This document shows, one piece after another, positions 1 through 21,697 of a stretch of 30,014 nucleotides of DNA. The notes below the pieces were generated by a model. That model did not search any database. It worked only from the letters and a program-made list of their open reading frames with translations, and was not told the DNA's origin. Origin of the DNA: Cochliopodium minus (Eukaryota > Discosea > Himatismenida > Cochliopodiidae). The first letter of the stretch is position 1. Each line of letters opens with the position of its first letter. The position numbers were made by a program, and so were the translations under genes. The stretch is from assembly GCA_024220525.1 (NCBI GenBank), contig JAMYWO010000017.1, positions 241,576 to 271,589 of the forward strand. The letters are read 5' to 3'.

Positions 1-993
1 CAACTAAAACTTTGACTATAGGATTTTCTCCTAACTCATCACTACTACTATCATCACTGCTAGTATCACTGTTATTTCTTCTTTCTTCTTTCAAAACTTT
101 TATTTTTGGTTTATTTTCTCTTTCAGAACTTTCGCTATCTTCGTCGTGTTTGTGAGTTGTTTTGTTGTCTGTTTTTCTAGTGTTTTCTTCCAAAACGATC
201 ACACTTTTACTTTGATTTGATTTGTGATTATCTTGATTATCTTCATTATGATGATCTCTCGTAATTTCTTCCAAAGATATTACTAGTTTATGATTTGTTG
301 ATTGATTTGTTGATTTATGATTGTTATCATGATTATTATCCTCTTCATCCAAATGTACTATTTTCTCCTCTTCCTTATTTTTATTTTTATTTGTATTATT
401 ATTATTATCGCTAATATCTTCTCTCCTCACTTCCTCTAAATGTTTTATCTTTAAATGCGAGTTATCTTCTCCAATATGATGTTGATTATCGTGATGATTA
501 TCTCTTATTTTTGGATCTTCCTTCTTTATTTCGGATAATACCTTTATAACTTTTCTTTCTGATCCCTTATTCTTTTCCTTAACATCATCTCTGCTCATTT
601 CAATCAATATCTTTTTTTTTCTGATGGTCAATTTCTTTTTGGTTGATATATTTTCCTCCTTTTCATTGGAATTCATATCCTCTTCTATCTCTTCGAATGA
701 ATACTCTTCCTCTTCATCTTCATCATCCTCGAAATCAGATAATTCAGATGATTCATCGTTTAATTGATTTTTGATTGATAAGAATTCTTTTGATGGAGAT
801 GAATCATCATTGAATATTTTTGAATTACTCAAAAACTAATTTTGGAACCAAACAATAACAAATTTATAAAATATCGTTTTTTTTTATAGTGAGGAATTTA
901 AAAATATAAAAATAAATTTGTGTGAAGATTGTTTAAAAATTTAACAAAAAATGTTATTTATTTGGTTGAATAATTGAGATTTACCTTTTGCAT
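1..993 (-). CDS. Acidic disordered protein with tandem SIM-like repeats (3' end outside window)
   Basis: I do not recognise this as a named gene. Reading leftward, one frame stays open from 835 to the window edge (about 278 codons). It starts after an acceptor at 836-837 and joins in phase to a proposed 9-nt first exon (985-993, Met-Gln-Lys) through a GTAAAT donor; in-frame stops lie just upstream of that ATG. The protein begins with an Asp/Glu-rich stretch. It then repeats a short motif of aliphatic residues followed by acids about every 26-33 residues: KILIEM, VIKVLSE, LKIKHLEE, KIVHLDEE, LVISLEE, SVIVLEE, KIKVLKEE. These sit in Asn/His/Asp/Lys-rich linkers. The motif shape matches SUMO-interacting motifs, so binding of SUMO or poly-SUMO is my inference. 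No folded domain is visible in the part seen. The tiny first exon is the least certain part. Confidence 0.6.
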
Positions 994-1126: not shown

Positions 1127-3115
1127 ATGGATGATCTATTTTCATCATTAACATTTGGAGCAAGATTCTCCAAAGAGGAGAAAAAAAAATTCACTCAGTT
1201 GAAAGAGAAAGAAGATGAAGAATCAATAGAAAAGAAATTGAAAAGTAGATCAATGCCAAAAGAACTTGTAACAAAATCATTCATCATAAATTTTTTTTCT
1301 CAATAAAATACAAAAAAAAGGATTTTTTTGGAAAATATAAAGAAAAAAGTGAGAATGGATCTGATAAAAAGAATAGAAAGAGAAAGATAGAAGATGAAGA
1401 AGAGATAGATGAAGATGAAGTATCTGAGGATAGTGATATAAGGTTATTATCAAAAAAGAAACAAGTCGAGGAAGATAATGAGGAGGAGTTGGATGATGAG
1501 GAAGATGAATTGGATAGTGATGAGCTCAAAAGATTAGAAAAGGGAGAAATAAAAAATACATTGGAATCAATCAGAAAGAAATACAAGATAAGAGTGATTC
1601 CTGAAGAAGAATCCAAACCACCAATAACTGAATTCTCAGAATTGGAATCCACATATAATCTCCGTAACTACATCTTAAAGAACATTGAGAGATTGGGCTA
1701 TAAAAAACCAACAGCAATTCAAATGCAAGCAATACCTCTTTTGTTGACAGGAGCTGATATGATATCATGTGCACCTACAGGTAAAAAAATAATATTTTTT
1801 AAATAATAATAATTTATATCATTTTTTGATTTTAAATGATTTTATTTTTAAATTCTTAACAAAATTTTTTATTTTCTTAATATAGGTTCAGGTAAAACAG
1901 CCAGTTTCATCATTCCTCTGCTGCACATTCTCAAAAAACCGAAAAAGGAATTGAGAGGATTGATCATCGCACCAACAAGAGAATTGTCCAAACAAATTCA
2001 TTCAGAATTGTTGGAGCTCTCTAAGGGAAAACCTTTCAGAACTTTGTTTCTCACAGATTCCAATGCATCCGCAATTAGCAACACCCAAAAATGTACATAT
2101 GACGTAATTGTTACAACTCCGATGTAAATTTTATTTTTTATTTAAGAAAATATTCCTCATTTTTCTTTCATTTTGTTATTTTTTCAATTTCAATTTTGCT
2201 TCCCAACTTTGTTACTTGGTGTTTTTAATTATTTTATGAACTATCAATTTGTTGTGAGGCATATAATAACAAACAAGAAAGACCAATAGCTAGTGAATTC
2301 TTAATTCAATGAATTTTCTAGAAAAATAGCTTTCTATATTAATTTCTTTATCAAATTTGTTTTTTAACTTAATTTTGAAATTTAGTTTTGTTAATTATTT
2401 ATTTTATTTTATTTTATTTTATTTTTTACTTTTCATATAGGCGTCTCTTGAAATTTTTAAGAGATAAAACTTTATCTCTTTCAACAGTACAGTACTTTGT
2501 TTTGGACGAAATTGATAAACTCTTCGAAATGGGATTCATTCATCAAATAGACGAGATAATCGCCTCCCTCTCCAAAGAATGCCAAAAAACCTTTTTCTCT
2601 GCAACAGTTCCCGGCACTGTTTCCAATTTGGCGGACACTGTTTTGAAGAATCCTTTCAAACTAACCATTCAAAGTGGTGCCATTCCAAGAAAAACTATTT
2701 CACAAGGTAAATTTTTTAAAAAAAAAATATTTTTTTTTAAATAAATATTTTTTTTTAAATAAATAAATATCAAGAAAATTTTCTTGAATAAAATAAAAAT
2801 ATTCAATTTCATAAATTTTTTCTAAAATAAAACAAAAATTTTCAATTTAAATTTAATTTCGTAAATAAATTTAAACTTTTTGTTATTCTTTTCAAATAGA
2901 ATTGATATACTGTGGTACAGAAGATGGTAAACTGATTTTTCTTAGGAATATGATCCTCAAGGGATTCGAGCCTCCCGTAATCATCTTTGTGGAAAATAAG
3001 GAACGTGCGGAGCAGCTCTTCAAGGAACTTGTCTTCCACAACATCAACGTCGACTTTATCACATCCGACAGATCCAAAAATCAACGTGATCGTGTTGTTG
3101 AAAATTTTAGAAGAG
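1127..3115 (+). CDS. DDX52: DDX52/Rok1-type DEAD-box RNA helicase, 3' truncated
   Basis: Family role: DDX52/Rok1 acts in the nucleolus on pre-18S rRNA during small-subunit assembly. Exons: 1127-1267, 1321-1780, 1886-2123, 2441-2706, 2900-3115, all in phase. The N-terminus (MDDLFSSLTFGARF, then DFFGKY after the first, 53-nt intron) matches the DDX52 N-terminus, which fixes the start. Visible motifs in order: Q motif (GYKKPTAIQMQAIP), motif I (APTGSGKT, split by an intron), Ia (APTREL), Ib (TTPMR), II as DEID, III as SAT, and the start of RecA2 with IIFVENKERA. The last exon ends at ENFRRG with a GTAAAT donor. Motif V (ARGxD) and motif VI (HRIGRxGR) are not found downstream: the next in-phase exon meets a TGA at 3482-3484 after about ten residues. 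As assembled, this cannot be an active helicase. True truncation and misassembly are both possible. Confidence 0.85.
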
Positions 3116-3149
3116 GTAAATTATTTTGAAAATAAATTTTGATTTTTTT

Positions 3150-3799: not shown

Positions 3800-4265
3800 A
3801 ATATTCAACAAATCTCAAAAATTCGACTTTAATAGATTTCATTAAACACAAGAGTAATCAATTATTAAAATGAAAAATAAATTACAAGAATGAAATTGTG
3901 ATTTTCAAAATAATTGTGGGAAAGGAAAAAGAGAAAGATTATTGTCAAAATGGGCAAAAAATATAAAATATAAAATATAAAAAATTTTATAAAATTTATA
4001 TTGTTTTCTCAATCAAAAGATACCTTCAATAATTAAAATCAAGAAATAGGAGATGTTGAAATGTTCAAAGATTATCTTTCAAAGAATGAATTGAAAGAAA
4101 CAAAAAAAAACTTTATCATAGTTGTTTGGGAGGAAATATGGCTATCATAAACAAAATGATCCAAATGGGAACAAAAGATTGGAATGAAGGATTTAGAGGA
4201 GCTGTTAGTTCAAAAAATATCAACATTGTGGTAAACATGGTAAAGAATGGGGCATTTAACTGTAA
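3800..4265 (+). pseudogene. Decayed copy of the ankyrin-type gene found at the right edge
   Basis: This stretch matches 29395-30014 in the same orientation. Shared parts include the upstream AAATCTC..AGATTT hairpin, a block containing GTGGGAAAGGAAAA and GATTATTGTCAAAATG, the intron end with TCAATCAAAAGATACC, and the EIGD..YLSKN segment. Relative to the right-hand copy it lacks a usable ATG, the intron donor is GGGCAAAA instead of GAAGTAAA, about 150 nt are missing after position 4045, and a base change in the A-run shifts the frame before GGNMAII. It continues with ankyrin-like text (KDWNEGFRGAV, NINIVVNMVKNGA) from 4138. It is a pseudogene of a dispersed family. Confidence 0.7.
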
Positions 4266-4367
4266 AATAATTTTTCCTGTATTTTTAATAAATATAAAAT
4301 AAAAAATTCCGAGAATTTATTATTAATTTTTTGGAATTTTAATTTTAATGTTTTTACTCTCTTAAAG

Positions 4368-5002
4368 TTGGAAGAAATTTGGGATTTTTTTAGTCCTGTT
4401 TGGGAAGTCAGAAACCTGCTTAATTTGACAAAAAAAATCCATTAAAAAACAAATCAAGAAATCAAAAATTAACAAAATATTTAATAATGGTCTCGAAGAT
4501 AAATATTACAGATTGTGCAATTTAATCTAATATGATAAAATTTCACAAATTGATAGTTTGTTGGATTTAGCACGTGATTATGACTTTAAAACTATTTTTT
4601 ATTATATTTTTTTCGATATTACGACAACTAAAGAAGGACTTGATTATGTCGCAGCCACGGAGAGATTTATTTCATAATTCCAAGAAGTTATTCCTTTTAT
4701 TGATCTCAACAAAAAAGTGATTGATCAGTACACCATACATTATCCAATGATAAATAAATCTGTTTCTAAAAATGACAATGAAACTCTATTCTTCCTTCTT
4801 AATTCTTGCGCTGATGTCAACACGATGTATAAAGTAAAAAATTTAAATTTATTTTAGTTCAAGAAAATTTAAAATTTATTTTTTTATCTTTTAAAAGGAA
4901 GAAACTGCAAAAGAATGTTATGATCTGATTGAAGATTTTGAAAAAGAAAAACTTTGGAATATAAACAGACATCATTTGTTTGACAAAGTCTCCAAGTGTT
5001 GA
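4368..5002 (+). pseudogene. Decayed RGS-domain-like gene
   Basis: Two blocks joined by an intron (4834-4897) keep a protein-like reading. The early part (LEEIWDFFSPVWEVRNLL) is one frame away from the rest; the shift lies in the A-run near 4430. The later part has LLDLARDYDF, then ITTTKEGLDYVAATERF, then KKVIDQYTIHYPMINKSV and AKECYDLIEDFEKEKLW. The spacing of these segments resembles an RGS fold, in which the family acts as a GTPase activator for G-alpha. Two in-frame TAA codons interrupt it, after CNLI and after ERFIS, both at places where Gln would fit. The frame ends at TGA 5000-5002. I see no start exon. RGS is inferred by pattern; an unknown helical domain is the alternative. Confidence 0.45.
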
Positions 5003-5121: not shown

Positions 5122-6765
5122 TTAATTTTCTGTTTCAACATTTTGTTTTTTATTCTGATTGTCAGATCCGTCAGACTTGTTCTTTCTTTTTCTCTTCCTC
5201 TTCTTCTTCTCATTCACTAGCAACCCATCCTTCTTCTTCTGCTCAAACTCGGCCTTCTTCTCTTTTATTTTATCCTTCCATTTACGTTTTTTCTTCTGTA
5301 CACGGGTCTCATTAGTAAATTCTTTTCTCTTTTAAAATTTAAAAATTAAAAAAAAAAATTTAAATGAACAAAAAAAAAATTAAATTTAAATAAAAATTAA
5401 AAATAATAAAAAATAACAAAAAAAATTTCTGAATTTACCTTAACAAAATTTTTCTTCTTTGGAGTGTCAGATTTTCCAGGAGTAAACAACTTAGGAGCAG
5501 AAACAAGCTCACTCTTTTGAGCGGACATTTTATTTTTGGCATTTTGAGTAGTCTTGAGATTAGTAGCATTGGAAGGCTTCTCCAACCTGAGGGCACAGTC
5601 CTTGATGTAGAGGATTGGCTGCCCCGCCATTTTGCGGAGTTTGTCGCGCTCTTTTCCTCCGTCGACTGCTACGATGAATTTCTCGTTTTTGATCATTTTT
5701 TGGATGCAAGCAAATGCTGATACACATGGTTCATGATCACATTTCAATCTTTATTTTTTTAAAAAGAAATTATTTTTTGTTAAAATAAACAAACGAAAAT
5801 TTATCGAGAATTAAAATTAAAAGAAAATTAAAAATTAAAAATTAACAGATTCTTATTTTAATGAAAATCACAAGTATTAATTAAATAAAATTATTTTTTT
5901 TTTTCCATTGAAAAAAATTGTTTAATTATATTATTCTCTCTTTTACTTATTCCTTTGGAGAATTGAAATTAAAACAAAAATAAAAAACTATGGGTTTGTT
6001 TTGCAGCTTTTAACTTTTTTAAATTAAAAATATTTAAAAATTAAAAATATTTAAAAATTAAAAATATAAATATTAAAATATAAAATTAAAAATTAAAATT
6101 AAAAATTATAATTAAAAATTAAAATTAAAAATTATAATTAAAAATTAAAATTAAAAATTAAAATTAAAAATATAAATTTAAAAAAATATCTTTTCAAAAA
6201 AAAATTTTTTTTTTATTTTTTTATTTACCTCTTAATTTTTCCTGTTAAAATGGTTGCTTCGAGATATTCTGGTCCCTTTTGTCTTATTTCTTGATATATA
6301 CATTCAGTGGTAACCAGATACGCTCTTTCTCCGAATAATTCAGGCAAGCCCTCCCTCAAATTCACTTTATGTTTGATTGACAGTTGAATAAAGTCCGAGT
6401 TATCTTTATTTTGAATGTAAAATAAGATTTTAAAACTGAAGACGTATTTTTTTAAACGGAGATGATTTTTTATTAATATTAATTGAAATGATGATATCCT
6501 TTATGTTTTTGAATTGATAGTATTTTATCTTTAAAAATTTATTGAAATATTACTTACATAATACCTATAATAATTATTGTTTGATGAATTTAGGTGACAA
6601 TATATTTTTGATTGGGAATAATTGAAGAAAAAATAAAGAATCATCTCATCTTTTTTTTTTGATGTTGATAATGAAAATTACTCTGTAAGGGGCATTATAT
6701 CCGAAAACTGATTTAAATAACTTCATCCTTTTTCTTGCTTGTTTTCCTCTTTGTATTTTACCCAT
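5122..6765 (-). CDS. UTP23: UTP23, PIN-like SSU processome factor
   Basis: Family role: Utp23 is a nucleolar PIN-domain protein of the small-subunit processome, needed for early 18S rRNA processing and release of snR30/U17. Exons in transcript order: 6682-6765, 6558-6564, 6229-6403, 5439-5748, 5122-5328. All phases agree and give 260 aa; human UTP23 is about 250. The N-terminus MGKIQRGKQARKRMKLF followed by FGYNAPYR matches the family start. The 7-nt microexon supplies Val-Leu, giving PYRVL as in PYQ(I/V)L. The rest has LREGLPELFGE, TTECIYQEI, a Cys/His cluster (LKCDHEPCVSAFAC), FIVAVDGGKERDKLRK, GQPILYI and LEKPS. The tail is rich in Lys and Arg, as expected for a nucleolar protein. The Asp of the family motif DGTF appears as Asn in this model, and human UTP23 is itself thought to lack nuclease activity. 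Confidence 0.9.
5990..6190 (-). repeat. AT low-complexity repeat inside a UTP23 intron
   Basis: The third UTP23 intron (5749-6228) contains many near-repeats of AAAAATTAAAATT and AAAAATATTT. On the sense strand of the gene it is T-rich, like most introns here. No other signal seen. Confidence 0.7.
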
Positions 6766-7097: not shown

Positions 7098-9168
7098 ATG
7101 GAAATAACATCATTAGTACTTATCATAGGAGAAAGAAATTGTAGTGGAGGATTTGCAGGTGATGAAATTCCAAAAGTAAATTTGAGAGTTGTGAATGAAG
7201 ATAATAAAAAAGACAGCAGCATCTTTTTTAACGAGGATATGTTGGATAAGATCACACAGAAGATGTTCTATGAAGAATTAAAGATAGATCCTGTTGAGCA
7301 TCCTTTATTCGTAAAAAAAAAAAAAAAATTTGATTAATTTAGGCCTAAAATTTAAATTCTTCACATAAATCAATTCGGATAAAAGACAAATAAGACGATG
7401 GATATAAATTTGAATAGAAGTAATAATAATATTTCTTTTATTATGTTAAATTTCAAATTATATTTAATATTAAATTTAAATCATTCGAATCTATTTTGAT
7501 AAACTTTCAAACCAGAAAATGTTTTAATATTTTTTTTTTGTGGTCACAATAAAAAATTATTAAAGGTTATAAGATGTTGAGTTATTACTTTGAAAAACAC
7601 AGTTGTCCTGCAATATACATTTCAAAGTAAAAAAAAAAAATTTAAAAATATTTTTTATTTATTTTTTATTTAAATCATGAATTAATTTTTATTATTAAAT
7701 ATCTTGATTTTTTCAAAAAATTTTTGTTAATTATTTTTAAAAATTTAAAAACAGCGAAGCCCCTCTTTCTTTGTTCAGTCATGGACAATCCAGTGGATTG
7801 AGTGTGATCAGTGGTCACAACCAAACTGAAATTTGTAAAAAAATTATTTAAAATAAATTTTTCTTTAAAAATTAAAAAATTGAAAATTAAAATATTAAAT
7901 AAGGTCCAATATCAGATGGTAATACAAAAAATTTTAAAATTCGAAAATATTAAAATAATAAAAAATAAATAAAAAAAATGAAAAAAAAATAAAAAAAAAA
8001 TGAAAATAAATAAAGAAATAACAAAAAAAAAATTAATTTAAATTAAATACAAAAAATTGAAAAAAAAATCAAAAACAAAAAACAAATAAAAAAATAAAAA
8101 ATAAAATGAAAATAAATAAAAAAATGAAAGAATATTAAATTTTTTATAACTTCTTATCATAGGATATCCCGTTCCACATGCAAATGTTATCACACATACA
8201 GGAGGAAAAACAGTTTCAAATTTTCTTTCAAATCTGATGAGGAGAAGAGGAATTTTGATTGAAGAAGATCTTTACGTCAACAAAGAACTTTCTGAAGGAA
8301 TTTTCGGAGTGACAGTGATTGACGATTTAAAAGAAAATTTAGTTCAAGTTTTGAATGAAAGACCTTCGAATTATAATATAGGTACATTGAAAAAAATATT
8401 CAAAAAAAAAACAAATTCAAATAAATAAATTAAAAATTAAAAAATAAATAATTGAAATGAATAAAAAAACATTCAAAAATAATTAAATAATTAAAAAATG
8501 GATAAATATGATAAAATAGAAATAAGAAAAAAATAATTTTTTTTTGAAGATAAGAGCAAAATCAAATATGAACTTCCTTGCGGAAATAAAATAGAAATGG
8601 GGTTTGAAAGATTTTTGGGTGGAGAAGTTTTGTTCGACACCTCCATTGATATTGAAAGCGACATTTCCGAACAATTATCCATCCCCGACGCCATTTGCAA
8701 GAGTATAAGTCTTTGTGACTTAGAAAAGAGATGTTGAATTACATGGTTATTTGTGGAGGAAATTCTTTTTTACCTAATTTAAAGCCAAGGTTTTAATTTT
8801 TTTATTTTTACTTTTTTTTTTAATTTATTTTTTTTAAAATTCTAATTTTTTTAATCATTATTAAATTTGATTATTTTATTTTTAGATTGAAAAGAGAAGT
8901 ACAAAATCAAATTTTCGAATCCTCGTTGTGGCTCAAATACCAAAAAGGAAACCAAAAAAGTCTTTTATCTTCTTTACCTCCAAACATTATCAATAAAATT
9001 CAAGACAACAGCATGGGAGTGAGATATAATCGTAATGAGGAGAAATACGCTGTTTGGATTGGAGGATCCATATTGTCTCATTTTAGAACTTTCCAACAGT
9101 TGTGGATTTCAAAGGAAGAATTTAATGAGAATGGTCCTTCTACTTTATTTTCTAGAAAATGTTTTTGA
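7098..9168 (+). CDS. Divergent actin-family protein (nucleotide site degenerate)
   Basis: Exons: 7098-7310, 7386-7419, 7566-7626, 7755-7834, 7904-7918 (15 nt), 8163-8381, 8550-8789, 8886-9168; about 381 aa. Matches to actin run in order: [82 protein letters not shown], and an almost unchanged end from [10 protein letters not shown] through FQQLWIS to GPS..RKCF. Three things are odd. The first phosphate loop (DNGSG in actin) reads IGERN, and the second (LDSGDG) reads VISGHN, so the ATP and metal ligands look lost. About 25 residues of subdomain 2, including the DNase-I loop, are missing. Subdomain 3 has an insertion of roughly 30 residues. A one-base loss near 8719 breaks the frame before [14 protein letters not shown]. 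The 34-nt second exon is chosen by length and phase and is the weakest part. Which ARP class it belongs to is unclear. Confidence 0.82.
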
Positions 9169-19615: not shown

Positions 19616-21697
19616 TTAAATTCCTTCAATTTTCAAGATATCAGATTTGAATTGGAGTTTTCCATTGAAGTAAACTCTTGCCTCATACTCACCGGTATGA
19701 ATAGGAGTTTTAAAAGTATGTACACCGTCAAAAGTNNNNNNNNNNNNNNNNNNNNNNNNNNNNNNNNNNNNNNNNNNNNNNNNNNNNNNNNNNNNNNNNN
19801 NNNNNNNNNNNNNNNNNNNNNNNNNNNNNNNNNNNTACTCACCGGTATGAATAGGAGTTTTAAAAGTATGTACACCGTCAAAAGTTTTGATCCAGTTCCA
19901 TCTTCTGTAGTAATTTGCTCTCTCCTCTTCTTTTTTATGTACAGTGACATAAGCACCAACCACAACAGGATCAACGGAACCGATTTGCCAACTTACATTG
20001 ATGACCTTGTCGTTTTTCTCATCGCGAACCATAGTAACAAAATCATTGCGAGTAGAAATGTAATCATCGCTCTTTCCGACAGTGATGTACTTGTTTAAAA
20101 AGACGCGGAAATGATAAGATCCATTCAAAAAAGGTTTATCAACAATATATTTGTTCTCTTTCAAGTTAGAAAGGTAGTTGTAAGATTTGTAGTTGGGATC
20201 CTTGTCTTCCTTGTTATAAAATCCGATCCATGAATAAGAACTTTGAGATTTAAAGTCTACAGTGGCGACAATCTTATCATCTTGTTCGACAAAAGTGATG
20301 ATACATTCACTTTGAGTGTTTTCCTGGATGGGAATCTCAATCTCAGGATTAGAGTATTCAAGGATCATATGCTCAATGTTCTTCTTAGTCTCCTCCTCTT
20401 CTTTGATCTCCTGATTCTCCAACAACTTCTGAACATCGATCATCTTAGATTTGGATTCTTCAATCAACTCCTTCATCTGATTCTCGCTGTACTCGAGCTT
20501 AGGTATCTCAATGTTCTTCTGCTCCTCCTTTTGTTTCTCAAGCTCCTTTTGCTTCTCCTGTTGAAGAAGAAGCTCCTTCTTGTTGTTTTCCTCCTTTTGT
20601 ACCTCCAACTGTTTCTCAAGCTCCCTTTGTTTCTCCTGCTGCAACTCGATCAACCTTTGAAACTCCTCAACTTTAAGTTGTTGATCCTTAATTTGCTGTT
20701 GAAACTCGAGATCTTTTTGCTTCTGCTTCTCACACATCTCATCGATCTCCTTCTGCTTGATTATCTCCACTTCCCTCAGTCTCTGTCTCTCCAACTCCTT
20801 TTGCTTCTCGAGCTCTTGTTGTCTTTGCAACTCAATCTCCTTTTCTCTCTTCTGTTCCTCCTCCCTTTGCTTTTGCATCTCCAACTCCTTTTGTTTCTCC
20901 AACTCCTGTTGCTTTTGAATCTCCAGCTCCTTTTGTATATCAAGCTCCCTTTGTCTTTGGATCTCCATCTCTCTTTCCTTCACAATCTTTTGGAGGGTTT
21001 TTGTTGCATCATTTTTGGACCAATTGGATTCTTCCAATGCATTTCTTATCTCCTCAGATGAGAAGGAGCCATTGTAATTGATGAACAAATCATCAAAGAT
21101 CCTTTGTTTTTGCAGCTTTCCCAATTCAAAGCTTATTTTCTCCACGTCCAATTCTTGCTTCTCAATCACCTCTATAATCTCCTCTTTGGTTAATTCGGTG
21201 AATTTCTCTGCGAATCCGCCTTGCATGTTTTGTATTTCCATCTCCTTCTTCAATTTCTTTGCCTCCTCGTTCTTTTGCTCCCTTTCTTTGAGCATTTGAT
21301 AGAGATGTTTGGATGTGAGCTGAGGATCATTATTATTTTTCTTGAATGCCTCCTCTATCTCTTTTTTATCGAACATTTGGAAATTGCTTACGAATGTCTC
21401 GATGTACTTTGTATGAATCTCCTTTTTTCTTCTTTCCTCTTCCAATTGCATTTCCCTCTTTTTATTTTCTTCAATCTCTGAATTTCTTTCTACCAATTCA
21501 TCAAATGCAGCATCCATATCATTATTATATTTTTTCAATATCTCCACAATATCTTCATCTTGTAAATGACTGAATAAGGATTTTACTTGATTTTTGGTAT
21601 TCTCGAATGGATCGAATTTCATCTCTTCCATCATTTCATTTACCTTTTCATTATCTCCCAGAATTTTTTGCAAATCTATCAATACAGATGGATTCAT
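19616..21697 (-). CDS. Intronless CUE/UBA-like, coiled-coil, SKICH-like protein (long paralogue)
   Basis: No named gene recognised. A single uninterrupted frame from ATG at 21697 to TAA at 19616. It reads 693 codons including a false gap; removing the gap and its duplicated flank (150 nt, in frame) gives about 643 aa. Residues 36-70 look like a CUE domain (LFSHLQDEDIVEILKKYNND). Similar helical segments lie near 99-139, 164-195 and 200-241. Residues about 241-430 are a long Gln/Glu/Lys coiled coil. The last 170 residues are two beta-rich repeats, the first with SYSWIGFYNKED and LNGSYHFRVF, the second with VSWQIG, YVTVHKKEEER and TGEYEARVYF. CUE and UBA domains bind ubiquitin in known families. 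Ubiquitin binding, dimerisation and cargo binding by the beta module are inference. It has no introns, although its paralogue has four. Confidence 0.85.
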   Translation of the reverse strand: MNPSVLIDLQKILGDNEKVNEMMEEMKFDPFENTKNQVKSLFSHLQDEDIVEILKKYNNDMDAAFDELVERNSEIEENKKREMQLEEERRKKEIHTKYIETFVSNFQMFDKKEIEEAFKKNNNDPQLTSKHLYQMLKEREQKNEEAKKLKKEMEIQNMQGGFAEKFTELTKEEIIEVIEKQELDVEKISFELGKLQKQRIFDDLFINYNGSFSSEEIRNALEESNWSKNDATKTLQKIVKEREMEIQRQRELDIQKELEIQKQQELEKQKELEMQKQREEEQKREKEIELQRQQELEKQKELERQRLREVEIIKQKEIDEMCEKQKQKDLEFQQQIKDQQLKVEEFQRLIELQQEKQRELEKQLEVQKEENNKKELLLQQEKQKELEKQKEEQKNIEIPKLEYSENQMKELIEESKSKMIDVQKLLENQEIKEEEETKKNIEHMILEYSNPEIEIPIQENTQSECIITFVEQDDKIVATVDFKSQSSYSWIGFYNKEDKDPNYKSYNYLSNLKENKYIVDKPFLNGSYHFRVFLNKYITVGKSDDYISTRNDFVTMVRDEKNDKVINVSWQIGSVDPVVVGAYVTVHKKEEERANYYRRWNWIKTFDGVHTFKTPIHTGEXXXXXXXXXXXXXXXXXXXXXXXXXXXXXXXXXXTFDGVHTFKTPIHTGEYEARVYFNGKLQFKSDILKIEGI
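19686..19885. repeat. Duplicated 50-bp flanks around an N gap
   Basis: Positions 19686-19735 and 19836-19885 are identical, from TACTCACCGG to GTCAAAAGT, and enclose exactly 100 N. A round 100-N gap between identical contig ends indicates an undetected overlap, not missing sequence. Confidence 0.93.
19736..19835. other. Assembly gap (100 N), probably spurious
   Basis: One hundred undetermined bases inside the coding sequence of the long paralogue. Collapsing the repeat and gap keeps the frame and restores a normal beta-repeat running from TFDGVHTFKTPIHTGE straight into YEARVYF. Confidence 0.95.

Follow-up and report, generated by a model that had tools for sequence, protein, structure and literature searches.

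A regularly spaced array of SIM-like motifs in a disordered protein of Cochliopodium minus: a candidate RING-less multivalent SUMO reader

A gene of Cochliopodium minus encodes a long, compositionally disordered protein that carries seven regularly spaced motifs resembling SUMO-interacting motifs (SIMs). It lies at the left end of the window analysed here, a stretch of 30,014 nucleotides (C17:241576–271589 of a 44.65-Mb assembly), as a minus-strand frame at positions 1–835 that is open across the left window edge. The best explanation of this array protein, judging from sequence comparisons and with about even confidence, is that it is a multivalent SUMO reader, or a scaffold, that has no RING domain. 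The window resembles protist nuclear DNA, with apparent introns and with Pfam matches in five of the nine window frames scanned (DEAD helicase, Fcf1, BRAP2, primase large subunit, and CUE domain).

The seven motifs share one common register, [IV]-x-x-L-x-E, whereas the polar linkers between them share little sequence. In order from the N-terminus, and all on the minus strand, they are motif 1, VIKVLSEIKKED (VIKVLSE; window 515–550, anchor Leu at residue 103); motif 2, IKHLEEVRRED (416–448, Leu 136); motif 3, IVHLDEEDNN (332–361, Leu 165); motif 4, VISLEEITRD (254–283, Leu 191); motif 5, VIVLEENTRK (173–202, Leu 218); motif 6, IKVLKEERRN (74–103, Leu 251); and motif 7, IVKVLV (2–19, Leu 280), which is completed by ESKRK on another contig, C592. 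Anchored on the Leu, the repeats read VIKVLSE, KIKHLEE, KIVHLDE, LVISLEE, SVIVLEE, KIKVLKE, and IVKVLVE, with anchor-to-anchor spacings of 33, 29, 26, 27, 33, and 29 residues. The Leu at position 0 and the Glu at +2 are identical in all seven, Ile or Val is present at −3 in all seven, Arg or Lys is present at +5 in six, and +1 is Asp, Glu, or Ser in five. At least one of positions −2 and −1 is V/I/L in six motifs, against an expectation of 0.082 per motif from the linkers, and the mean beta propensity exceeds the helix propensity in six of the seven cores (Chou–Fasman values). A sequence-only reading had described at least seven aliphatic-then-acidic motifs recurring every 26–33 residues in polar linkers, and the register, the spacings, and the shuffles reported below confirm it. 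The span it had assigned, 1–590, contains a real array but stops a little early: ILIEMSRDD, a degenerate motif that does not have the L.E register and was not counted, lies at 584–610 (minus strand), and the gene itself appears to start near 993.

The pattern [IV]..L.E occurred seven times in residues 95–290, compared with a mean of 0.16 and a maximum of three in shuffled sequences, none of 20,000 reaching seven; this test is post hoc because the pattern was derived from these same repeats. When blocks of two, three, or four residues were shuffled (20,000 each), at most three, five, and five matches were obtained, respectively. As a local control, we collected 152 distinct stop-to-stop ORFs of at least 100 amino acids without X from the window and further loci, leaving out eight that overlapped the array gene or its gap. 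A chain of at least three [IV]..L.E matches at spacings of 20–40 residues was found in the array ORF only among the 152 (6 within the window). A loose SIM-like pattern did not set the array ORF apart, which counts against the SIM reading: the longest chain was three in the array ORF, three in one other ORF, and four in another.

The linker DNA is 24–58% identical between units, which rules out a recent tandem DNA duplication, and the motif DNA is 36–67% identical between copies. Because both have diverged, the repeats are probably old copies or converged motifs. They also appear to be held by selection, at least in this one genome, because the Leu and Glu are identical in all seven motifs while the pairwise identity is only 0.05–0.29 in the flanking columns (−10 to −5 and +6 to +17). 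This conservation, together with the low DNA identity of the motifs themselves, argues against the idea that the array has no specific partner and that its repeats are short hydrophobic stickers serving to promote self-association, adjust solubility, or engage chaperones, or are simply what is left of an ancient repeat expansion. We consider that idea unlikely, but it draws on several observations: the protein is disordered by composition and rich in K, E, D, S, N, and H; codons are shared at identical motif residues in 59 of 89 pairs, more than in a codon-shuffled null (mean 42.2; 9 of 2000 shuffles reached the observed value), which may be a trace of common descent; and our searches found no relatives that would show constraint. 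In the same genome, no paralogue beyond the array gene itself was found at E ≤ 0.001 (6 and 12 candidates scored) or at E ≤ 10 (8 candidates), and of 41 stretches of viral contigs that matched a search pattern, none was confirmed as a relative.

The window holds only part of the gene. There is a stop codon upstream of the second-exon frame, and an apparent intron, GTAAAT...TTAG (836–984, minus strand), joins the second exon in frame to 993–985 (minus strand), where the first exon would encode MQK (ATG CAA AAG; CTTTTGCAT found at 985), directly followed by the donor GTAAAT. Splicing was read here from the genomic sequence rather than from a transcript, and it places the putative protein start at MQKFLSNSK and the gene start near 993. 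In the DEAD helicase gene next to it (window 1772–3120), four apparent donors have the same GTAAA sequence. To the left of the window lies an N run of approximately 25 kb (C17:216178–241575). A genome search returned a second exact match, which lies terminally on C592, an unplaced contig of 10,724 bases; its last 77 bases are identical to window 1–77. An overlap of 77 bases is typical of adjacent contigs in a k-mer assembly, and C592 therefore most likely belongs inside the C17 gap; at its opposite end, C592 showed no exact overlap in the same orientation with the other flank of the gap. The second exon (window 1–835, minus strand) continues across this exact overlap in the same frame, and it runs unbroken on C592 for 703 further residues to a TAA at C592:8537. 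In this way, the missing 3′ end was recovered from a probable neighbouring contig, as the sequence-only reading had envisaged, and the predicted protein, from the MQK exon through the window exon to the C592 part, comprises 984 amino acids. A separate assembly feature lies elsewhere in the window, where a 100-base N gap (19736–19835) interrupts the CUE-domain gene (19616–21697, minus strand); one coding stretch (TFDGVHTFKTPIHTGE) is present on either side of it, which probably reflects duplication of a contig end where the assembly was joined.

The frame that follows C592:8537 on that strand is most likely a separate gene. We regard it as very unlikely that an intron removes the TAA and joins that frame (C592 8312 downwards) to the array gene, in which case an outside domain, for example of a SUMO enzyme, would complete a longer protein. 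The frame does follow after approximately 224 bases, and a mechanical scan yielded 39 GT–AG pairs that would join the two, 11 of them from a GT at the stop codon; however, none of the five GT sites in these pairs reads GTAAA like the apparent donors of the window, and the listed AG sites fall inside the next frame, past its ATG at 8312. Furthermore, the first 354 residues of that frame, the part scanned ahead of a last exon at approximately 7131–6847, had no Pfam match over the cut-off (Raco_middle, E 0.35), so even a join would add no known domain there. Convergent with this gene, on the plus strand of C592, are two similar adjacent frames (4209–4874 and 6098–6745) with a GCGYAQNPP motif, which we take to resemble macro/PARG-type hydrolases.

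Considered as a whole, the 984-residue protein is disordered by charge–hydropathy in all six segments into which it was divided, although the last (104 amino acids) is so only narrowly (0.412 vs. a boundary of 0.434). This composition bears out the earlier description of the protein as otherwise disordered. By eye, its layout consists of an acidic start and the array (approximately residues 95–290), followed by Ser/Pro/Glu and His/Asp/Lys regions, a basic region of the TPKTK type, and a short C-terminus. The acidic N-terminal stretch, SDFEDDEDEEEEYSFEEIEED, lies at 677–739 (minus strand), and the net charge of residues 1–64 is −0.297 per residue. Within this stretch, EEEEYSFEEIEED would fit an LIR core (F-x-x-I with an acidic flank), possibly by chance, and the short C-terminus holds FLDLTESED, which is also SIM-like and was left out of the motif count.

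No Pfam match was obtained at E ≤ 1 over the predicted 984 amino acids, including the recovered 703-residue C-terminal part, and the whole protein contains no Cys in any of the six segments. Neither Pfam nor the PDB sequences supplied a known domain over the repeats, an outcome that would have refuted the sequence-only reading: the only PDB row, an alphaRep protein, had a nonsignificant E of 1.4. A match of the C-terminal 102 residues to prephenate dehydratase was the best among PDB sequences (E 0.095) and was attributed to chance. That reading had anticipated a RING or other SUMO-pathway domain downstream of the array, in an RNF4-type arrangement, and this prediction fails because no such partner domain was found. 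An RNF4-type ligase can be rejected (no RING, no Pfam domain at E ≤ 1, zero Cys), and the Peptidase C48 domain of a Ulp/SENP SUMO protease was likewise not found in the 984 residues.

We assessed the likeness of the repeats to SIMs from their cores and flanks. Six of the seven repeats contain, in one register or another, a four-residue core in which three or more residues are V/I/L, the exception being motif 2 (IKHL), and motif 6 has only the Ψ-x-Ψ-Ψ form. The parallel Ψ-Ψ-x-Ψ form is found in five when other registers are allowed and in three in the common register. In that register, position −2, which would face the HS3 pocket of SUMO, is hydrophobic in three motifs and Lys in four, and HS3 is described in a review as the second most selective SUMO pocket (PMC12751080). 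The acidic or phosphorylatable flank expected of a SIM is supplied by the Glu at +2 and, in the five motifs noted above, by the residue at +1; the shortness of this acidic flank and the Arg or Lys that follows it at +5 count against a SIM. The invariant Leu and following Glu fit the SIM description in the same review (PMC12751080), and motif 5 (VIVLEE) resembles the SIM of DAXX, given as IIVLSDSD in PMC8616421. When a SIM core was defined independently of the repeats (Ψ-Ψ-x-Ψ or Ψ-x-Ψ-Ψ, with Ψ being V, I, or L), six cores were found in residues 61–290 (shuffle mean 1.70, reached by 4 of 5000) and one in the remaining 703 residues (mean 1.69), whereas the excess over the whole 984 residues was modest (7 vs. 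a mean of 3.43, reached by 215 of 5000). Cores with two or more D/E among the five residues that follow numbered four in residues 61–290 (6 of 5000) and five in the whole protein (24 of 5000). Strict SIM patterns were not enriched in residues 61–290 (SIMa, one match, 256 of 5000; ELM-like, two, 417 of 5000; SIMb, none). The independently defined core is enriched around the array and the strict patterns are not, and the SIM identity of the repeats is plausible but incomplete.

The rival motif classes that we tried each fitted at most three of the seven repeats, fewer in every case than the SIM, with working versions of the patterns throughout and crude ones for UIM and ET. The strict clathrin box, LIR, LxxLL, RVxF, LC8, and UIM-like patterns fitted none; the Mad2-type and ET-type patterns fitted one repeat each, the HP1-type pattern (P-x-[VI]-x-[LMV]) two, and a relaxed clathrin box three. 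An array of ATG8-interacting motifs (LIR/AIM) was rejected with an aromatic residue at the first core position in none of the seven repeats, which follows from the absence of F, W, and Y from residues 65–290. These counts bear on a further possibility, that the array binds repeated copies of another beta-groove partner (another ubiquitin-like protein, through an aliphatic relative of an ATG8 or UFM1 motif, a chromo-shadow or ET-type domain, or some other reader). In that case, [IV]xxLxE(xxR) would be the mark of this other partner, and the resemblance to SIMs would be accidental. Compared with a SIM, the repeats are indeed tighter at −3, 0, +2, and +5 and looser at −2; the HS1 pocket of SUMO is said in PMC12751080 to correspond to the Leu pocket of ATG8 proteins; and the HP1-type, ET-like, and relaxed clathrin patterns do find their few repeats. 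Because the aromatic-dependent and other strict classes found none, and every alternative tried fitted fewer repeats than the SIM, we place this reading on the unlikely side of possible.

A SUMO partner for the array was sought in the same genome with the Rad60-SLD profile, which matched 47 places. Frames were read for 26 of these, many of which looked ubiquitin-like by eye; the other 21, comprising 19 rows of 64.6 bits and two of 53.6 bits and mostly in tandem on a few contigs, were taken as polyubiquitin. The single frame among the 26 that was pursued further, on contig C482, ends in the SUMO-type sequence DQQGG and scored 36.3 bits against Rad60-SLD (cut-off 23.8), with its first exon and exon join being inferred. 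Against PDB sequences it matched SUMO2 and Smt3, the best single-stretch E being approximately 1e-5 (5gjl and Smt3 1l2n) among the 60 of 123 matches listed, many of which are SUMO-tag fusions; an E of 6.1e-8 against the two-SUMO chain 4bkg came from the summing of two weak stretches. We compared its groove residues by alignment to SUMO2, with the sub-sites and the SUMO1/SUMO2 offset drawn from PMC12751080. The equivalents of SUMO1 V38, K39, T42, and K46 are unchanged and L47 is Ile, whereas F36 is replaced by Val, H35 (Gln in SUMO2) by Glu, K37 by Arg, and R54 by Gln. These residues indicate that the positive prongs are kept, HS1 is nearly kept, and HS3 is altered, and this alteration may correspond to the place where the array is itself unusual, the Lys at −2. 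The short N-terminal tail of the candidate has no Ψ-K-x-E site, which makes poly-SUMO chains doubtful and multi-SUMOylated targets likelier. The genome also has three zf-MIZ and eight Peptidase_C48 exon-level places over the cut-off, in which SUMO and other functions are counted together, and the listed C48 places are all on contigs other than that of the array gene. A frame at C83:44100–45200 with a terminal SUMO-like domain also matched Rad60-SLD and resembles proteins of the Rad60/Esc2/NIP45 type.

The poly-SUMO-reader layout proposed by the sequence-only reading was only partly upheld: the array is regular, the protein is disordered by composition, and a SUMO candidate with a partly kept groove is present, but the anticipated RING or SUMO-pathway domain was not found, one of the seven repeats has no SIM core, and four have Lys at the HS3 position. 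If the multivalent SUMO reader that we favour is correct, the product would be a long, disordered, probably nuclear protein, the N-terminal third of which presents approximately seven weak SIMs separated by flexible, polar linkers. By beta-strand addition, each motif would dock in the SUMO groove, placing its invariant Leu in HS1, the deep pocket, and the Glu after it close to the basic prongs; with seven weak sites, one chain would gain avidity for multi-SUMOylated proteins, single or clustered. We propose a role as a scaffold or recruiter, not a ubiquitin ligase, because no enzyme domain was found; for example, it may act as a recruiter to chromatin or nuclear foci rich in SUMO, with its Lys/Ser/Pro-rich C-terminal part as the means. 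The SUMO binding, its orientation, the nuclear location, and the scaffolding are all inferred. A more specific version, which we find improbable but worth stating, is that the array is a natural stand-alone poly-SIM scaffold written in a lineage-specific SIM dialect, [IV]-[KVI]-x-L-x-E-x-x-R, in which motif and groove have changed together. Val for Phe36 and Glu for His35 in the partner SUMO would then make Lys acceptable at the HS3 position, and the array would illustrate how SIM grammar can drift as the SUMO groove changes, in a lineage that has received little study.

The array protein would work like known multi-SIM proteins, but its motifs are unusually regular and no enzyme domain accompanies them. 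The earlier statement that no named family is built in this way was too strong as to kind, since RNF4, Ulp2, TOPORS, and ICP0 are documented multi-SIM proteins. The vertebrate STUbL RNF4 has a SIM cluster in its N-terminal region and avidity for SUMO chains (PMC4083429, PMC3901395), with four SIMs (PMC12751080), three of them functional according to PMC3901395, and a SIM4 core of VVIV (PMC3901395/PMC4083429); its SIM2 and SIM3 are only eight residues apart and it carries a RING, whereas the array protein has seven motifs at 26–33 residues and no RING was found. In Ulp2, the yeast SUMO protease, growing SUMO chains are bound by five SIMs at the N-terminus (PMC6891891). TOPORS has five SIMs and one putative atypical SIM (PMC11183266). 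Its RING lies towards the N-terminus, and none was found in the array protein. Ulp2 carries a C48 protease domain, which the array protein does not have. ICP0 of herpes simplex virus shares the number of seven SIM-like sequences (PMC7824580), but it is a viral ubiquitin ligase and we claim no sequence relation. In SIMC1, a recruiter to SUMO-rich PML bodies, tandem SIMs are likewise located in a long N-terminal disordered region (PMC9708086). SIMC1 is drawn there with two SIMs and a helical Nse5-like C-terminal domain; the array protein has seven motifs and no folded domain was found, a comparison made on the basis that its C-terminal part is disordered by composition (the last 104 residues narrowly) and has no Pfam match. 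We do not assign the array protein to any of these families. Since RNF4, Ulp2, TOPORS, and ICP0 are each a ligase or a protease, avidity is hard to separate from catalysis in them; a regular seven-site array without an enzyme domain would be a natural test of what valency and spacing by themselves contribute to SUMO recruitment and condensate formation. The designed polySIM partner of polySUMO condensates, mentioned in PMC12751080, also carries many SIMs per chain. Designed polySIM is artificial and made of identical copies, whereas the array is natural and its copies have diverged; if it is indeed a stand-alone poly-SIM scaffold, it would be the natural counterpart of that design.
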